From NCBI RefSeq assembly GCF_000522985.1, contig NZ_CP007128.1:3270220-3334219 (forward strand): DNA of 64,000 nt, in the 5' to 3' direction. Made by a program: the position numbers and the translations under genes. This document shows positions 39,946 through 44,911 of this stretch, in pieces. The notes below the pieces were generated by a model, which was given only the letters and a program-made list of their open reading frames with translations, was not told the origin of the DNA and searched no databases. The stretch's first letter is position 1, and every line of letters starts with the position of its first letter. This DNA is from Gemmatirosa kalamazoonensis. GTDB lineage: Bacteria; Gemmatimonadota; Gemmatimonadetes; Gemmatimonadales; Gemmatimonadaceae.

Positions 39946-40281
39946 TCACTCGTCGTCGGCGTCGCCGCCGGTGGCGAGGGCGGCGCGCCCGGCGTCGGTC
40001 ACCGTCACGCGCTTGGAGTAGTCCGCGCCGCGCGCCACCGACAGCAGCCCGCGCTCCACGAGCTGCGTCATGATCTGCGTGACCTGCGCCTCGGAGAACA
40101 TCGGTCCGGGCTTGTCGAACCCCGTCGTCACCGCGGCGCGGTGCCGGGCCGCGAGCTGGTTGCGGATGCTCAGCACCAGGCCGTCCCACCGCGGGCCTGC
40201 CTCGTTCCGGCCGGGAATGGGCACGTCGATCTCCGCCACGGCTTCCTTGAGCACGAGCCGCTGGCGATCCGTCAGCTTCAT
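39946..40281 (-). CDS. Uncharacterised winged-helix-like protein
   Basis: A 111-residue protein beginning MKLTDRQRLVLKEAVAEIDV. Residues ~60-105 (SEAQVTQIMTQLVERGLLSV, then YSKRVTVTDAGRAAL) look like the second half of a winged helix: recognition helix followed by a beta wing and the TDAGRAAL helix typical of MarR/PadR-like regulators. The N-terminal half lacks a clear first helix set, so the fold is tentative. It lies 15 bases after the SARP-pseudokinase gene on the same strand, so the two are probably co-transcribed. No ligand site is seen. Confidence 0.6.
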   Translation of the reverse strand: MKLTDRQRLVLKEAVAEIDVPIPGRNEAGPRWDGLVLSIRNQLAARHRAAVTTGFDKPGPMFSEAQVTQIMTQLVERGLLSVARGADYSKRVTVTDAGRAALATGGDADDE

Positions 40282-40296
40282 GTCGACTCCGTTTCG

Positions 40297-42006
40297 TTAG
40301 GCGCCCGCCGTCGGGCGCACCGCGGCGAGCGCCGCGCGCAGCTCGCCGCCGTCGCGGTAGCGGTCCGACGGCGACTTCGCGAGACACCGCCGCACCACCG
40401 CGTCCAGCTCGGGCGTCACGCTGTCGCGCCGCTCGCGCAGCGACGGCACCGGGGCCGTGAACTTCGCGCTCACCAGATGCGTCGGGTTGCCGCTCGCGAA
40501 CGGTACCTCGCCGGCGAGCATCTCGTACAGCATGCAGCCGAGCGCGTACACGTCCCACCGGGCGTCGACGCCGGACGCGCCGGTGAGCTGCTCGGGGCTC
40601 TGGTACGCCGGCGATCCGACGCGGATTGCGGTCGACGTCCGATCGTGCGCCGTCGCGCTGACCAGCGCCTCGGCGATGCCGAGCCCCGTCACGACGCAGC
40701 CCGCGTCGCCGCCGACGACGTACTTCGGGCGCAGGTCCCCGTGACGCACGCCGCGCTCGTGGGCGTGCGCCAGCGCCGCCGCCACGTCGTCGGCGACGGC
40801 GAGCGCCTCGCCTAACGGCAGCTGCCGCTCGCGCGCGAGCCGGTCGCGCAGCGACACGCCTTCCGGGCGCGAGACCACGTAGTACACGACGTGCTCCGCG
40901 ACGCCGTGCTCGTACAGCGGCGCCACGTGCGGCTCGTCGAGCGACGCGATGCGGTCGAGGTGCGCGCCGAGCAGGTCGAAGTCGGCGCTCGTCGACACGC
41001 CGGCATCGAGCAGATGGATCTCGACCGGCACGCGCCGCGTGCGATCGAACGCCTGGTAGCTCACGATGGCGCCGACGACGTGCCGCGACGTCTGCGCGTC
41101 GATGTCGAAGCGCGCGCCGAGCGTGCGATCGAGCCACGCGAGCCGCCGGTCGCGTGCGCGCTCGCGCACCGCGTCGGCGCGCAGCGCGGCCGCCGCGCGC
41201 GCGCCGCCCCGCGCGGTCGTCGCGTCGGGCTCCTCGCCGGCGCGGAGCTGCGCGGCGAGGTCGGCGACCGCAGCATCGGGCTCGGTGCCGAGCTGCTGGC
41301 GCACCACCGTCTCGTGCACGGCGGCGAACTGCAGCGCGCCGGTGCGGTCGCCCGCGTCGGAGAGCGCGCGCATGAGACCGAGCGCATAGCGCGAGCTCAC
41401 CGGGTGCTCGGCGGCGAGCCGGCGCCACCAGGTCACCGCACCCGTGCGGTCGCCGCGCGCGGAGCTCTCGGCGGCGAGCGCCTCGAGCGACGCGGTGTGC
41501 AGCCGCGCGAAGTGCGCGCGCTGCGCGTCGGCCCAGTGCTCGAACTCCGGCGCGTCGCTCACCACGAAGCCGTCGAGGAACGGACCCTTGTACAGCGCGA
41601 CGACTCGCTGGTGTGCGCCCGCTTCCGCCGCTTCCTCGAGCTCCTGCACGTCGGAGCTGATGACCGCGGGGTTGAGCTGCAGCGCCGACGTGCCGAGGAA
41701 CAGCGCGTCGCCGCCGAGCGCGTGCTGCAGCGCGTGCAGCGCCTGGCGCAGCGCGTGGCGCGCGCGCTCCTCGTCGACGTCGGGCCACAGCACGCCGACC
41801 AGCTTGTCGCGGCTGATCGGCCGCGTGCCCGCGGCGGCGACCAGCACGAGCAGCGCCAGCCGTCGGCGCTGGCTCGCCGCGCCGGTGTGGGGCTCGCCGT
41901 CGTCGCGCAGCAGCACGCCGCCGAACGTCGTCAGTCGGAGCACGCGAAAGGGTCGCAGGGGAGGGGATCGTGCATCGACGGTGGGCGCGGGTAGGCGGAT
42001 CACCAC
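40297..42006 (-). CDS. SARP-type regulator (BTAD domain) fused to a pseudokinase
   Basis: A 569-residue protein. The N-terminal part is a SARP/BTAD module: an OmpR-like winged helix (LTTFGGVLLRDDGEP, RRRLALLVLVAAAGTRPISR, GVLWPDVDEERARHALRQAL) and a TPR-rich BTAD region with YKGPFLDGFVVSDAPEFEHW. The C-terminal ~260 residues are kinase-shaped (LYEHGVAEHVVYYVVSRPEG, GSPAYQSPEQLTG, DVYALGCMLYEMLAG) but lack key residues: VAIK is VPVEIHLL, HRDxKPxN is HGDLRPKY and DFG is GLG. It is therefore probably a non-catalytic sensor or scaffold. GTG 42006 is preferred because a TATCTT box ends 7 bases before it (leaderless). The stop TAA lies in GCCTAAC. Divergent from a true kinase gene. Confidence 0.82.
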   Translation of the reverse strand: MVIRLPAPTVDARSPPLRPFRVLRLTTFGGVLLRDDGEPHTGAASQRRRLALLVLVAAAGTRPISRDKLVGVLWPDVDEERARHALRQALHALQHALGGDALFLGTSALQLNPAVISSDVQELEEAAEAGAHQRVVALYKGPFLDGFVVSDAPEFEHWADAQRAHFARLHTASLEALAAESSARGDRTGAVTWWRRLAAEHPVSSRYALGLMRALSDAGDRTGALQFAAVHETVVRQQLGTEPDAAVADLAAQLRAGEEPDATTARGGARAAAALRADAVRERARDRRLAWLDRTLGARFDIDAQTSRHVVGAIVSYQAFDRTRRVPVEIHLLDAGVSTSADFDLLGAHLDRIASLDEPHVAPLYEHGVAEHVVYYVVSRPEGVSLRDRLARERQLPLGEALAVADDVAAALAHAHERGVRHGDLRPKYVVGGDAGCVVTGLGIAEALVSATAHDRTSTAIRVGSPAYQSPEQLTGASGVDARWDVYALGCMLYEMLAGEVPFASGNPTHLVSAKFTAPVPSLRERRDSVTPELDAVVRRCLAKSPSDRYRDGGELRAALAAVRPTAGA

Positions 42007-42013
42007 CGCAGGC

Positions 42014-42019
42014 AAGATA
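42014..42019 (-). promoter_or_regulatory. Candidate -10 (TATCTT) for the SARP-pseudokinase gene
   Basis: On the minus strand TATCTT ends 7 bases before the GTG at 42006, so transcription would start at or next to the start codon. The same hexamer is seen ahead of the PP2C gene (29497-29492, minus). Confidence 0.45.
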
Positions 42020-42078
42020 GCAAGTCGACCGCTCGGACCGAGGGAGGAACGACCCTGGTAGGGGCCACGGCGGGGTCG

Positions 42079-42084
42079 TATAGT
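42079..42084 (+). promoter_or_regulatory. Candidate -10 (TATAGT) for the divergent kinase gene
   Basis: TATAGT ends 8 bases before the ATG at 42093, giving a near-leaderless transcript. Together with the TATCTT on the opposite strand it defines a compact divergent promoter of ~70 bases. Confidence 0.45.
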
Positions 42085-42092
42085 GAGCACCG

Positions 42093-44117
42093 ATGACGTG
42101 GCCCGTGATGGCAAGGGATCTCCAGCAGTACCTCGGCACCGTCCTCGCCGCCAATTACCGGATCGAGCGCGAGCTCGGCGTCGGCGCGACGGCCAGGGTG
42201 TACCTCGCGCACGACCTGAAGCACGACCGGCTCGTCGCGCTGAAGGTCCTGCGCCCGGAGATCGCCGTCGCGATGGGGGCCGAGCGGTTTCTCCGCGAGA
42301 TCCAGACGGCCGCGCGCCTGTCGCATCCGGGCATCCTGCCGCTCTACGACTCGGGCGAGACGGAGGGGCTGCTCTACTTCACGATGCCGTTCATCGAGGG
42401 CGAGTCGCTGCGCGACCGCCTCGAGCGCGAGGAGCGGCTTCCGGTGGACGAGGCGGTTCGGATCACGCGCGACGTGGCCGAGGCGCTCGGCTTCGCGCAC
42501 GAGTGCGGCGTCATCCACCGCGACGTGAAGCCGGAGAACATCCTGCTGGCCGGGCACTCGCCCGATGGGCGGCGGCACACCGGCGGTGTCCGGCCGCTCG
42601 TCGCCGACTTCGGGATCGCGCTCGCGCTTGAGGACTCGGAGTCGCGGCTCACGCACACGGGCATGGTCGTCGGCACGCCGCGCTACATGAGCCCCGAGCA
42701 GAGCATCGGCATCGCGGCGCTCGATCATCGGACCGACGTGTACAGCCTCGCGTGCGTGCTGTACGAGATGCTCACCGGGCGCGCGCCATTCGAGGGCCCG
42801 ACGCTGCAGGCGATCGTCACGCAGCGGCGGTACGAGGATCCGCCGGCGATCCAGTCGCTGCGTCCCGACGTGCCGCGCGCCGTGTCCAACGCGCTCGCCG
42901 AAGCGCTGGCGAAGGATCCGGCCGACCGCTTCGCGAGCATGGAGCAGTTCTCCGCCGCGCTCGTCGATCCGACGCGCCGCCGCCGCATGACGCGCCGCGC
43001 GGCGCGCCGGCTGCGCGTGTGGGCCGGCGTCGGCGTGGCGCTCTCCGCGCTCGCCGTCGTCGGAGCGGTAGCCGTGCGCACGCAGACGTCGCCGTTGAAG
43101 CGGCGCGATTGGGTGGTCGTCTCCGACTTCGACGGTCCGCCGTCGGACCCGGCGCTCGGCCGCGTGGTGCGCGAGCTCGTGACGACGGAGCTGAATCAGT
43201 CGCGGTTCGTCTCCACCATGCCGCGGTCCGCGCTCGCCGGGGCGCTCCGCGCGTCGGGTCGGCCCGAGACGACGCGCGTGAACGTCGACCTCGCGCGCGA
43301 GCTCGCGGAGCGCAGCTCCGTGCGTGCCGTGGTGACCGGGAACGTGGAGACCGCCGGCGACGGATACCGGCTCGTCGTGCGCGTGGTGGACCACGACGCG
43401 GGGAAGGAGATCGCCACCGCGTCGGCGGTCGCCTCCGCGGACAGCGTCGTTCCCGTCGTGCAGCGACTCGGCCACGCGCTCCGCGAGCAGCTCGGCGAGC
43501 GTCGCAGTGAGCTCGAACGCAACCAGGTGCTGCTCGACATCGCCACGCCCTCGCTCCCGGCCTACCGCAGATACGTCGACGCGCTCGCCCGCAAGGAGAG
43601 CGGCGACGTCGCCGGGAGCAACCGGCTGCTGCGCGATGCCGTCGCGCTGGACACCGGCTTCGCGGCAGCGTGGGCGCTCATGGGGCTCAACTACATCGAG
43701 GCGCGCAATCTCGACTCCGCGCGGCTCACGCTGAGCGAGGCGCTGCGTCGACCGCAGCGGCTCAGCACCGCGCAGAGCTACCGGCTGAAGGCGGACGCCG
43801 CGTACGCCATCGACCGCGACCTCACGTCGGCGGTGAAGTGGTACACGCAGTACCTGTCGCTCGTCCCGAACTCGGTCGGCGGCCGCAGCAACCGCGGGCT
43901 GTACATGTACATGCTCGGTCGGTACGAGGACGCGCTCGCGGACTTCGACAGCGCCGCGGCGAACAACCCGTTCGGGCGCGATCAGGATCCGCCGATGGTG
44001 ATCAACGCGGCGGACATGCTGATGGCGTTAGGCCGTCCGGATCGCGCCGCGGAGCGTGCGCGCGCGCGCTCACCGGCGTCTACGCCGACGACGCATCGAT
44101 CCTGCTCGCCACGGTGA
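42093..44117 (+). CDS. Membrane Ser/Thr kinase with TolB-like domain and TPRs, truncated by frameshift
   Basis: As written the frame gives 674 residues. The kinase domain (~15-285) is intact: RELGVGATARVYLA, VALKVLRPE, HRDVKPEN, ADFG, GTPRYMSPEQ. A membrane helix (VWAGVGVALSALAVVGAVAV) lies near 305. The outer part has a FlgO/TolB-N-like domain (DWVVVSDFDGPPSDPALG, SSVRAVVTGNVET) and TPR repeats (LPAYRRYVDALARKESGDV, GGRSNRGLYMYMLGRYEDAL). After residue ~655 the reading frame switches to a nonsense tail (SPASTPTTHRSC) at the GC run 44058-44067; the TPR region continues in another frame to 44911. ATG 42105 is an alternative start. The kinase domain may still work. Confidence 0.88.
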   Translation: MTWPVMARDLQQYLGTVLAANYRIERELGVGATARVYLAHDLKHDRLVALKVLRPEIAVAMGAERFLREIQTAARLSHPGILPLYDSGETEGLLYFTMPFIEGESLRDRLEREERLPVDEAVRITRDVAEALGFAHECGVIHRDVKPENILLAGHSPDGRRHTGGVRPLVADFGIALALEDSESRLTHTGMVVGTPRYMSPEQSIGIAALDHRTDVYSLACVLYEMLTGRAPFEGPTLQAIVTQRRYEDPPAIQSLRPDVPRAVSNALAEALAKDPADRFASMEQFSAALVDPTRRRRMTRRAARRLRVWAGVGVALSALAVVGAVAVRTQTSPLKRRDWVVVSDFDGPPSDPALGRVVRELVTTELNQSRFVSTMPRSALAGALRASGRPETTRVNVDLARELAERSSVRAVVTGNVETAGDGYRLVVRVVDHDAGKEIATASAVASADSVVPVVQRLGHALREQLGERRSELERNQVLLDIATPSLPAYRRYVDALARKESGDVAGSNRLLRDAVALDTGFAAAWALMGLNYIEARNLDSARLTLSEALRRPQRLSTAQSYRLKADAAYAIDRDLTSAVKWYTQYLSLVPNSVGGRSNRGLYMYMLGRYEDALADFDSAAANNPFGRDQDPPMVINAADMLMALGRPDRAAERARARSPASTPTTHRSCSPR

Positions 44118-44911
44118 CGAACCGGTGGGCCGACGCGGAGCGCGTCGCGACACGCGCGGCGAACGCGCCCGGCTCGTCTCCGAGCCTCCGGATCGACGCG
44201 ACGACGGCGCTCGCCGCGGTGCGCGCCGTCCACGGCGAGGTGGCCGCGGCCGGGCGCATCCTCTCCGCCGCGGCCGCGCGGTCGACGGGCGCCGAGCAGC
44301 GCTGGTACGAGAACGCGCGCTCGATCCTCGCCATCGTCAGCGGCGAGTCGGAGCCGGCGATCGGCGCCTCGCTGGCGAGCGACAGCACCCCTGGCGCCGT
44401 GCAGGCGCGCGGACTGCGGCTCGCCGCGCGCGGCGACACGAGCGGCGCCCGTGCCGTCCTCCGACACCTCGACGCGCTGCCGCCGGTGGAGCTGGCGCGA
44501 CTCGGCCACGGCCCGGTCGTCATCGCGTCGCTCATCGACGGCCGCGCGGGACGGTGGGCGCACGTGATCGAGACGCTCGCACCGCTCGCGCGGGCGGGCG
44601 AGCACGAGTCGCTGAACGCGGACCGCGCGCCGAGCCTCATCATGCGGTGGATCGTGGCGGACGCGTATGCGCACGTCGGCGAGCTGGATTCCGCCGTCGT
44701 GACGATGGCGCGCGCGGTGGATTACCGGCGCGTGCCGCCGGGGCACCTGGTGCTGCGGGGGCTCGCATACTCCTTCGCGCAGCGCCGGCTCGCGGAGTGG
44801 CAGGAGCGTCGCGGCGATCGCGACGCCAGCCGCCGCGCGTGGGCGGCTTTCCGCGCGGCGTTCACGAACCCCGATCCGGCGCTTCGCCACCTGCTCGTCG
44901 GCGCTCGATGA
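44068..44911 (+). pseudogene. Out-of-frame C-terminal TPR part of the kinase gene
   Basis: The frame following the (GC)5 run encodes ~280 residues that carry on the TPR region of the upstream kinase without a gap (ALTGVYADDASILLATVTNR, AAGRILSAAAARSTG, DSAVVTMARAVDYRRVPPG, RRAWAAFRAAFTNPDPALRH). Removing one GC unit would join both parts into a ~938-residue protein. Codon bias is strong throughout, so the break is recent, phase-variable or a sequencing error. There is no ribosome site or start codon that would suit an independent gene. Confidence 0.8.

Follow-up and report, generated by a model that had tools for sequence, protein, structure and literature searches.

In Streptomyces the kinase AfsK has the SARP regulator AfsR among its targets (PMC1262709), and in Mycobacterium tuberculosis the FHA domain of EmbR couples a SARP to the kinase PknH (PMC4601284). 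In these known cases the kinase and the SARP that it controls are separate proteins, whereas at the locus described here a kinase fold and a SARP module are joined in one chain. The bacterial pseudokinases catalogued so far fall into the families ActPs1-3, GLW, CP1, DYD and DLHK (PMC12599244), in a text that mentions neither BTAD nor SARP and describes no family fused to them, and in the open-access literature that we searched neither BTAD-kinase fusions nor a BTAD-linked family of bacterial pseudokinases are described. The fusion analysed here lies in a window of 64,000 nucleotides (the whole stretch of DNA under study) from Gemmatirosa kalamazoonensis, a soil bacterium of the phylum Gemmatimonadota.

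Results

A SARP module and a kinase fold in one chain

The fusion gene, its parts and its downstream neighbour are as follows.

40297-42006, minus strand: SARP-pseudokinase fusion gene, open frame of 569 aa from GTG 42006
41221-41943, minus strand: SARP module, winged helix plus BTAD (residues 22-262), from AF2, structural matches and Pfam BTAD
41119-41205, minus strand: predicted linker helix of 29 residues (268-296), from model secondary structure and alignment
40312-41118, minus strand: pseudokinase domain (residues 297-565), complete bilobal fold, from AF2 and structural matches
39946-40281, minus strand: 111-aa ORF, 15 bp downstream of the fusion, no Pfam family

The frame has no internal stop codons, and a Pfam scan of its product finds BTAD (1.5e-11) and Pkinase (3.4e-22). 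Trans_reg_C scores under the cut-off in most relatives. The AF2 model of the whole protein has a mean pLDDT of 89 and includes a full bilobal kinase. Because the structural matches of the whole protein (Foldseek) were all taken by kinases, the SARP half was folded separately; modelled alone it reached a pLDDT of 95.8 and matched AfsR (Z 18-18.9) and EmbR (Z 17.3). No unrelated fold scored above 11.7. A SARP has a winged helix at its N-terminus and BTAD helical repeats after it, and the SARP module that a first-pass annotation had read in this half is borne out by the model, by these AfsR/EmbR matches (Z 17-19) and by Pfam BTAD. The true start is uncertain: the relatives begin with M-L-R-L-x-T-F-G-G, the matching site in the window gene is GTG 41943, a likely alternative start, and residues 1-21 of the fusion model are of low confidence, so that the protein may be one of 548 aa. 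The linker helix is longer than the linker of most relatives.

The 111-aa ORF likely shares an operon with the fusion. Its homologues, 71% identical, occur in two genomes of another genus of the same family, and in one of these genomes (G158) the homologue follows a plain kinase gene. With homologues in only 2 other family genomes, a role of the ORF as a conserved partner of the fusion found no support.

The kinase half has lost four of five catalytic residues

The kinase half, which in the structural comparison of the model matches PknA and PknB (Z 28-31), carries these altered motifs.

41014-41025, minus strand: beta-3 motif VEIH (V328-H331) replacing VAIK, from alignment
40720-40743, minus strand: catalytic-loop motif HGDLRPKY (422-429) replacing HRDxKPEN, from alignment
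40678-40686, minus strand: GLG (441-443) replacing DFG, from alignment
40630-40632, minus strand: Thr459 in the activation segment, from alignment; Ser/Thr in all three HGD-type relatives

Aligned with the divergent active kinase and with active fusions, the domain has His331 in place of the ATP lysine, Tyr429 in place of the HRD-loop Asn and Gly441 in place of the DFG Asp, and both the C-helix Glu (no RE is present) and the glycine loop are missing. Four of the five canonical catalytic residues are therefore gone and only the HRD Asp is left, as D424. An active Hanks-type Ser/Thr kinase would have the beta-3 Lys, HRD Asp, HRD-loop Asn and DFG Asp, of which this domain has the HRD Asp alone; a kinase fold, as modelled, combined with the loss of catalytic motifs indicates a Hanks-type pseudokinase. 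The three losses named in the first-pass annotation (ATP lysine, DFG Asp, HRD-loop Asn) were all correct, the surviving HRD Asp having been omitted there, and the structure prediction that it called for returned a complete bilobal kinase. Both the SARP fold and the dead kinase fold are seen as predicted models and motifs. The retained HRD Asp makes a weak or altered activity of the domain possible, and Thr459 is a possible candidate site of trans-phosphorylation.

The dead-kinase signature is shared by relatives in other genera

The same domain order and signature are found in two genomes of other genera of the same family, G336 (L176:4709-6406, plus strand) and G029 (L184:7842-9461, minus strand). 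Common to the three members are ExH in beta-3, HGDLRPK/R, Gly for the DFG Asp and GSPxYQSPEQ; HGDLRP, E329 and H331 are invariant, and the position of the HRD-loop Asn is Tyr or His. The three kinase halves group together in the kinase tree (100/99), and since the members are only 31-42% identical to one another, retention of the shared motifs cannot be ascribed to recent copying. This same divergence is too great for dN/dS of the HGD group to be computed. At least three such fusions exist among the 179 family genomes searched, a lower bound since few candidates were scored per genome.

Such conservation bears on whether D424, ExH and Arg426 give the domain an old or newly acquired activity of a non-canonical kind, or let it bind nucleotide without metal, as has been proposed for the DLHK pseudokinases and ULK4. 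The invariance of HGDLRP, E329 and H331 in three divergent relatives would fit this idea, as would the HRD Asp and the constraint on an Arg in the catalytic loop of DLHK members, one of which is listed with GFG (PMC12599244). However, the domain lacks the glycine loop, the beta-3 Lys, the C-helix Glu, the Asn and the DFG Asp, and of these DLHK keeps the Asn; we regard such an activity as quite unlikely.

Live and dead fusions across the phylum

Profile searches of 395 phylum genomes recovered at least about 30 full-length BTAD-kinase fusions; 3-7 candidates were scored per genome, so that the fusion counts are lower bounds. Most fusions keep all catalytic residues in the alignment. The dead ones form three groups on motifs and trees: the HGD type, which includes the window fusion; a second group (L120, L158, L053, L112, L173) with C-helix E to Q, HRD to HRN, and GFG where the segment is present; and a third (L121, L188/L198, L164, L175) in which only DFG has changed, to NLG or NFG. 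The second and third groups sit next to each other on the kinase tree, though with modest support (91/56), so that the motifs and trees suggest two lineages with loss of catalysis as a minimum and three as the probable number. The first and second groups share the change of DFG Asp to Gly and are poorly separated by the BTAD tree. In the kinase half, dN/dS is 0.167 and 0.156 in two pairs of the second group versus 0.161 in one live pair; the dead domain in the second group is under the same purifying selection as the live ones, at about 0.16.

These comparisons argue that the window fusion belongs to a type that is conserved and derived from live fusions, and that it is not a lone decayed gene. 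If the kinase half were a degenerating remnant and the SARP half alone mattered, one could point to its terminal branch in the window, twice that of the SARP half (1.03 vs 0.53), yet a longer kinase branch is also what is expected after loss of catalytic constraint, and the absence of stops, the high-confidence fold, the specific motifs kept across three genera and the purifying selection in the comparable second group all speak against decay, which we find very improbable.

In a separate arrangement (L125:7106-11748), a live fusion and a second kinase gene on its strand are in tandem, the fusion reaching over the start of that gene.

The divergent kinase is not a conserved neighbour

An 86-bp gap separates the fusion from a divergent gene.

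42007-42092: divergent promoter gap, from the sequence
42079-42084: TATAGT, putative -10 of the kinase gene, read by eye
42093-44117, plus strand: divergent membrane kinase with TPR, all catalytic residues and a transmembrane segment present

The description of this gene as a catalytically complete membrane kinase holds, with the qualification that its frame breaks in the interval from about 44034 to 44174. Homology runs on to 44911, and an intact 924-aa homologue matches frame 1 of the kinase to residue 647 and then another frame; either a frameshift or an error in the sequence accounts for the break, which falls in a GC-rich run. The kinase domains of the two window genes are 33-35% identical and lie in different clades, and a recent duplication as the origin of the pair was dropped on these grounds.

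The first-pass annotation had also proposed that fusion and kinase may form a circuit and that genomes be searched for the domain order together with the divergent kinase. The domain order was recovered; the divergent kinase was not conserved. In G336 a co-directional peptidase-like gene precedes the fusion, and the 10.7-kb contig that carries them has no kinase; in G029 an ECF sigma factor stands opposite the fusion. From the side of the kinase, no BTAD gene lies beside its two closest homologues (G033, G230). The conserved pair, tested from both sides, was rejected.

The circuit itself, a functional unit in which the 42093 product would act on the fusion by binding or phosphorylating it, draws on the 86-bp divergent gap, on the EmbR/PknH precedent (PMC4601284) and on the kinases directly adjacent to four fusions, namely the window fusion and L164 (divergent) and L125 and L170 (directly downstream), more than the one or so in 27 that a rough estimate predicts. 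These adjacent kinases vary from case to case, in arrangements unrelated to one another; moreover, neither HGD-type relative has the pair, nor does it occur at the two nearest kinase homologues, and the window kinase frame is broken. We consider this unit rather unlikely.

What stands opposite the fusions differs between live and dead members. Assigned by eye, and in members that are not phylogenetically independent, genes for small lipoproteins, several with Big_2 domains, lie opposite 17 of 19 live fusions. None of the 8 dead fusions has a lipoprotein there: three stand across from a sigma factor, two from a kinase and two from a secreted protein, and one has no opposing gene. An automatic lipobox test was positive for 12 of 27 fusions, compared with 14% of divergent genes (p = 0.0002). 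Lipoproteins with Big_2 opposite live fusions can be seen at L159:6952-7410, L160:6731-7177, L162:7366-7872 and L124:2717-3241.

A candidate SARP operator

SARP operators are 11-bp direct repeats, with 10-bp variants also described (PMC5930380). Many fusions have upstream NTCA repeats, usually CTCA, that recur every 11 bp and often end at the start codon (CTC-ATG). At least three exact registers (three or four) were present in 9 of 27 fusions, in none of the reversed and reverse-complement controls and almost never in shuffles; when 13 whole genomes were scanned, most occurrences of the four-copy pattern fell on fusion start codons. G336 has a four-copy repeat upstream of the operon of the fusion, and G029 a three-copy repeat between fusion and sigma factor. 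These CTCA repeats, found at the fusion or operon starts listed below, are a candidate SARP operator for Gemmatimonadota.

L123:2361-2397
L124:3237-3273
L159:7514-7550
L160:7279-7315
L162:7928-7964
L176:2756-2792
L184:9509-9534

No regular CTCA repeats above chance were found in the window, which has only a TCA triple.

42084-42109: candidate operator TGAG-TGAC-TGAT, spacing 10 and 12, overlapping the kinase start, from shuffles

None of 1000 shuffles had such a triple, which is a post hoc find with irregular spacing, and because it was found after inspection we treat it as a lead to a SARP operator. Upstream of the fusion, TCGTTCC and TCGGTCC occur 11 bp apart; as a single pair with a mismatch, they were put down to chance. 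Elsewhere in the same genome, a four-register CTCA-type repeat with one mismatch (L002:1443-1479) lies just upstream of the start of the SARP paralogue that is closest to the SARP half of the window fusion.

Discussion

On balance we favour, as moderately probable, a fusion that serves as a SARP-type regulator acting locally on the divergent gene, its pseudokinase being a control domain responsive to a partner or to phosphorylation. Most likely, the SARP half would bind NTCA-type repeats in the shared promoter and regulate the divergent gene, in the window the membrane kinase, and possibly the fusion itself. A SARP placed as the fusion is would be expected to have the 42093 kinase gene as its target, and the start of that gene is overlapped by a SARP-like repeat. 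The dead domain would most likely set the activity of the SARP half through binding to a partner kinase or to a phosphorylated protein, a control logic that may be likened to that of the FHA domain coupling EmbR to PknH; alternatively, the input could be trans-phosphorylation of the activation-segment Ser/Thr that the dead domain has retained. The 42093 kinase would be only one candidate partner. The earlier suggestion of ligand- or partner-controlled transcription is reasonable, given a SARP joined to a dead-kinase signature that is retained in relatives.

For the family as a whole, one may envisage the live fusions as one-chain switches, Ser/Thr kinase and transcription factor together, that sense or phosphorylate in cis and govern the opposite gene for an envelope lipoprotein, with the dead lineages rewired to another divergent gene (sigma factor, kinase or secreted protein) and converted from self-contained to trans-controlled. 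This scheme is speculative, and we would not bet on it as a whole. Since fusions have passed from live to dead and been maintained at least twice among the relatives, the kinase shape that is still maintained probably serves to take orders from partners and not to catalyse. Live and dead versions with separate losses provide a naturally occurring set in which to study the role of a pseudokinase after catalysis is lost, and a short, defined DNA operator is a possible read-out for it.

The known systems share parts of this arrangement. Like EmbR-PknH (and EmbR2), the window protein has a SARP module with a C-terminal domain tied to Ser/Thr kinase signalling (PMC4601284); unlike EmbR, its C-terminal domain is a pseudokinase, the Pfam scan of the fusion finding no FHA and the kinase fold standing in its place, and the partner kinase is not conserved. 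Its SARP half matches AfsR, but the protein ends after the kinase fold, without the C-terminal NOD/NB-ARC and TPR part of AfsR, and the kinase fold is in the same chain. The live Gemmatimonadota fusions (L122-L127, L159-L163, L165-L172) have the same domain order, with 30-40% identity over the fusion, and differ in their complete catalytic residues and in a divergent gene that is mostly a small lipoprotein. With the catalogued families ActPs1-3, GLW, CP1, DYD and DLHK the domain has in common the loss of ATP- and metal-binding motifs, and with DLHK also the retained HRD Asp. DLHK, however, keeps the HRD-loop Asn, has degraded VAIK and DFG and is often helicase-linked (PMC12599244), whereas in the three HGD-type fusions this Asn has become Tyr or His and no helicase domain is present in the Pfam scan.
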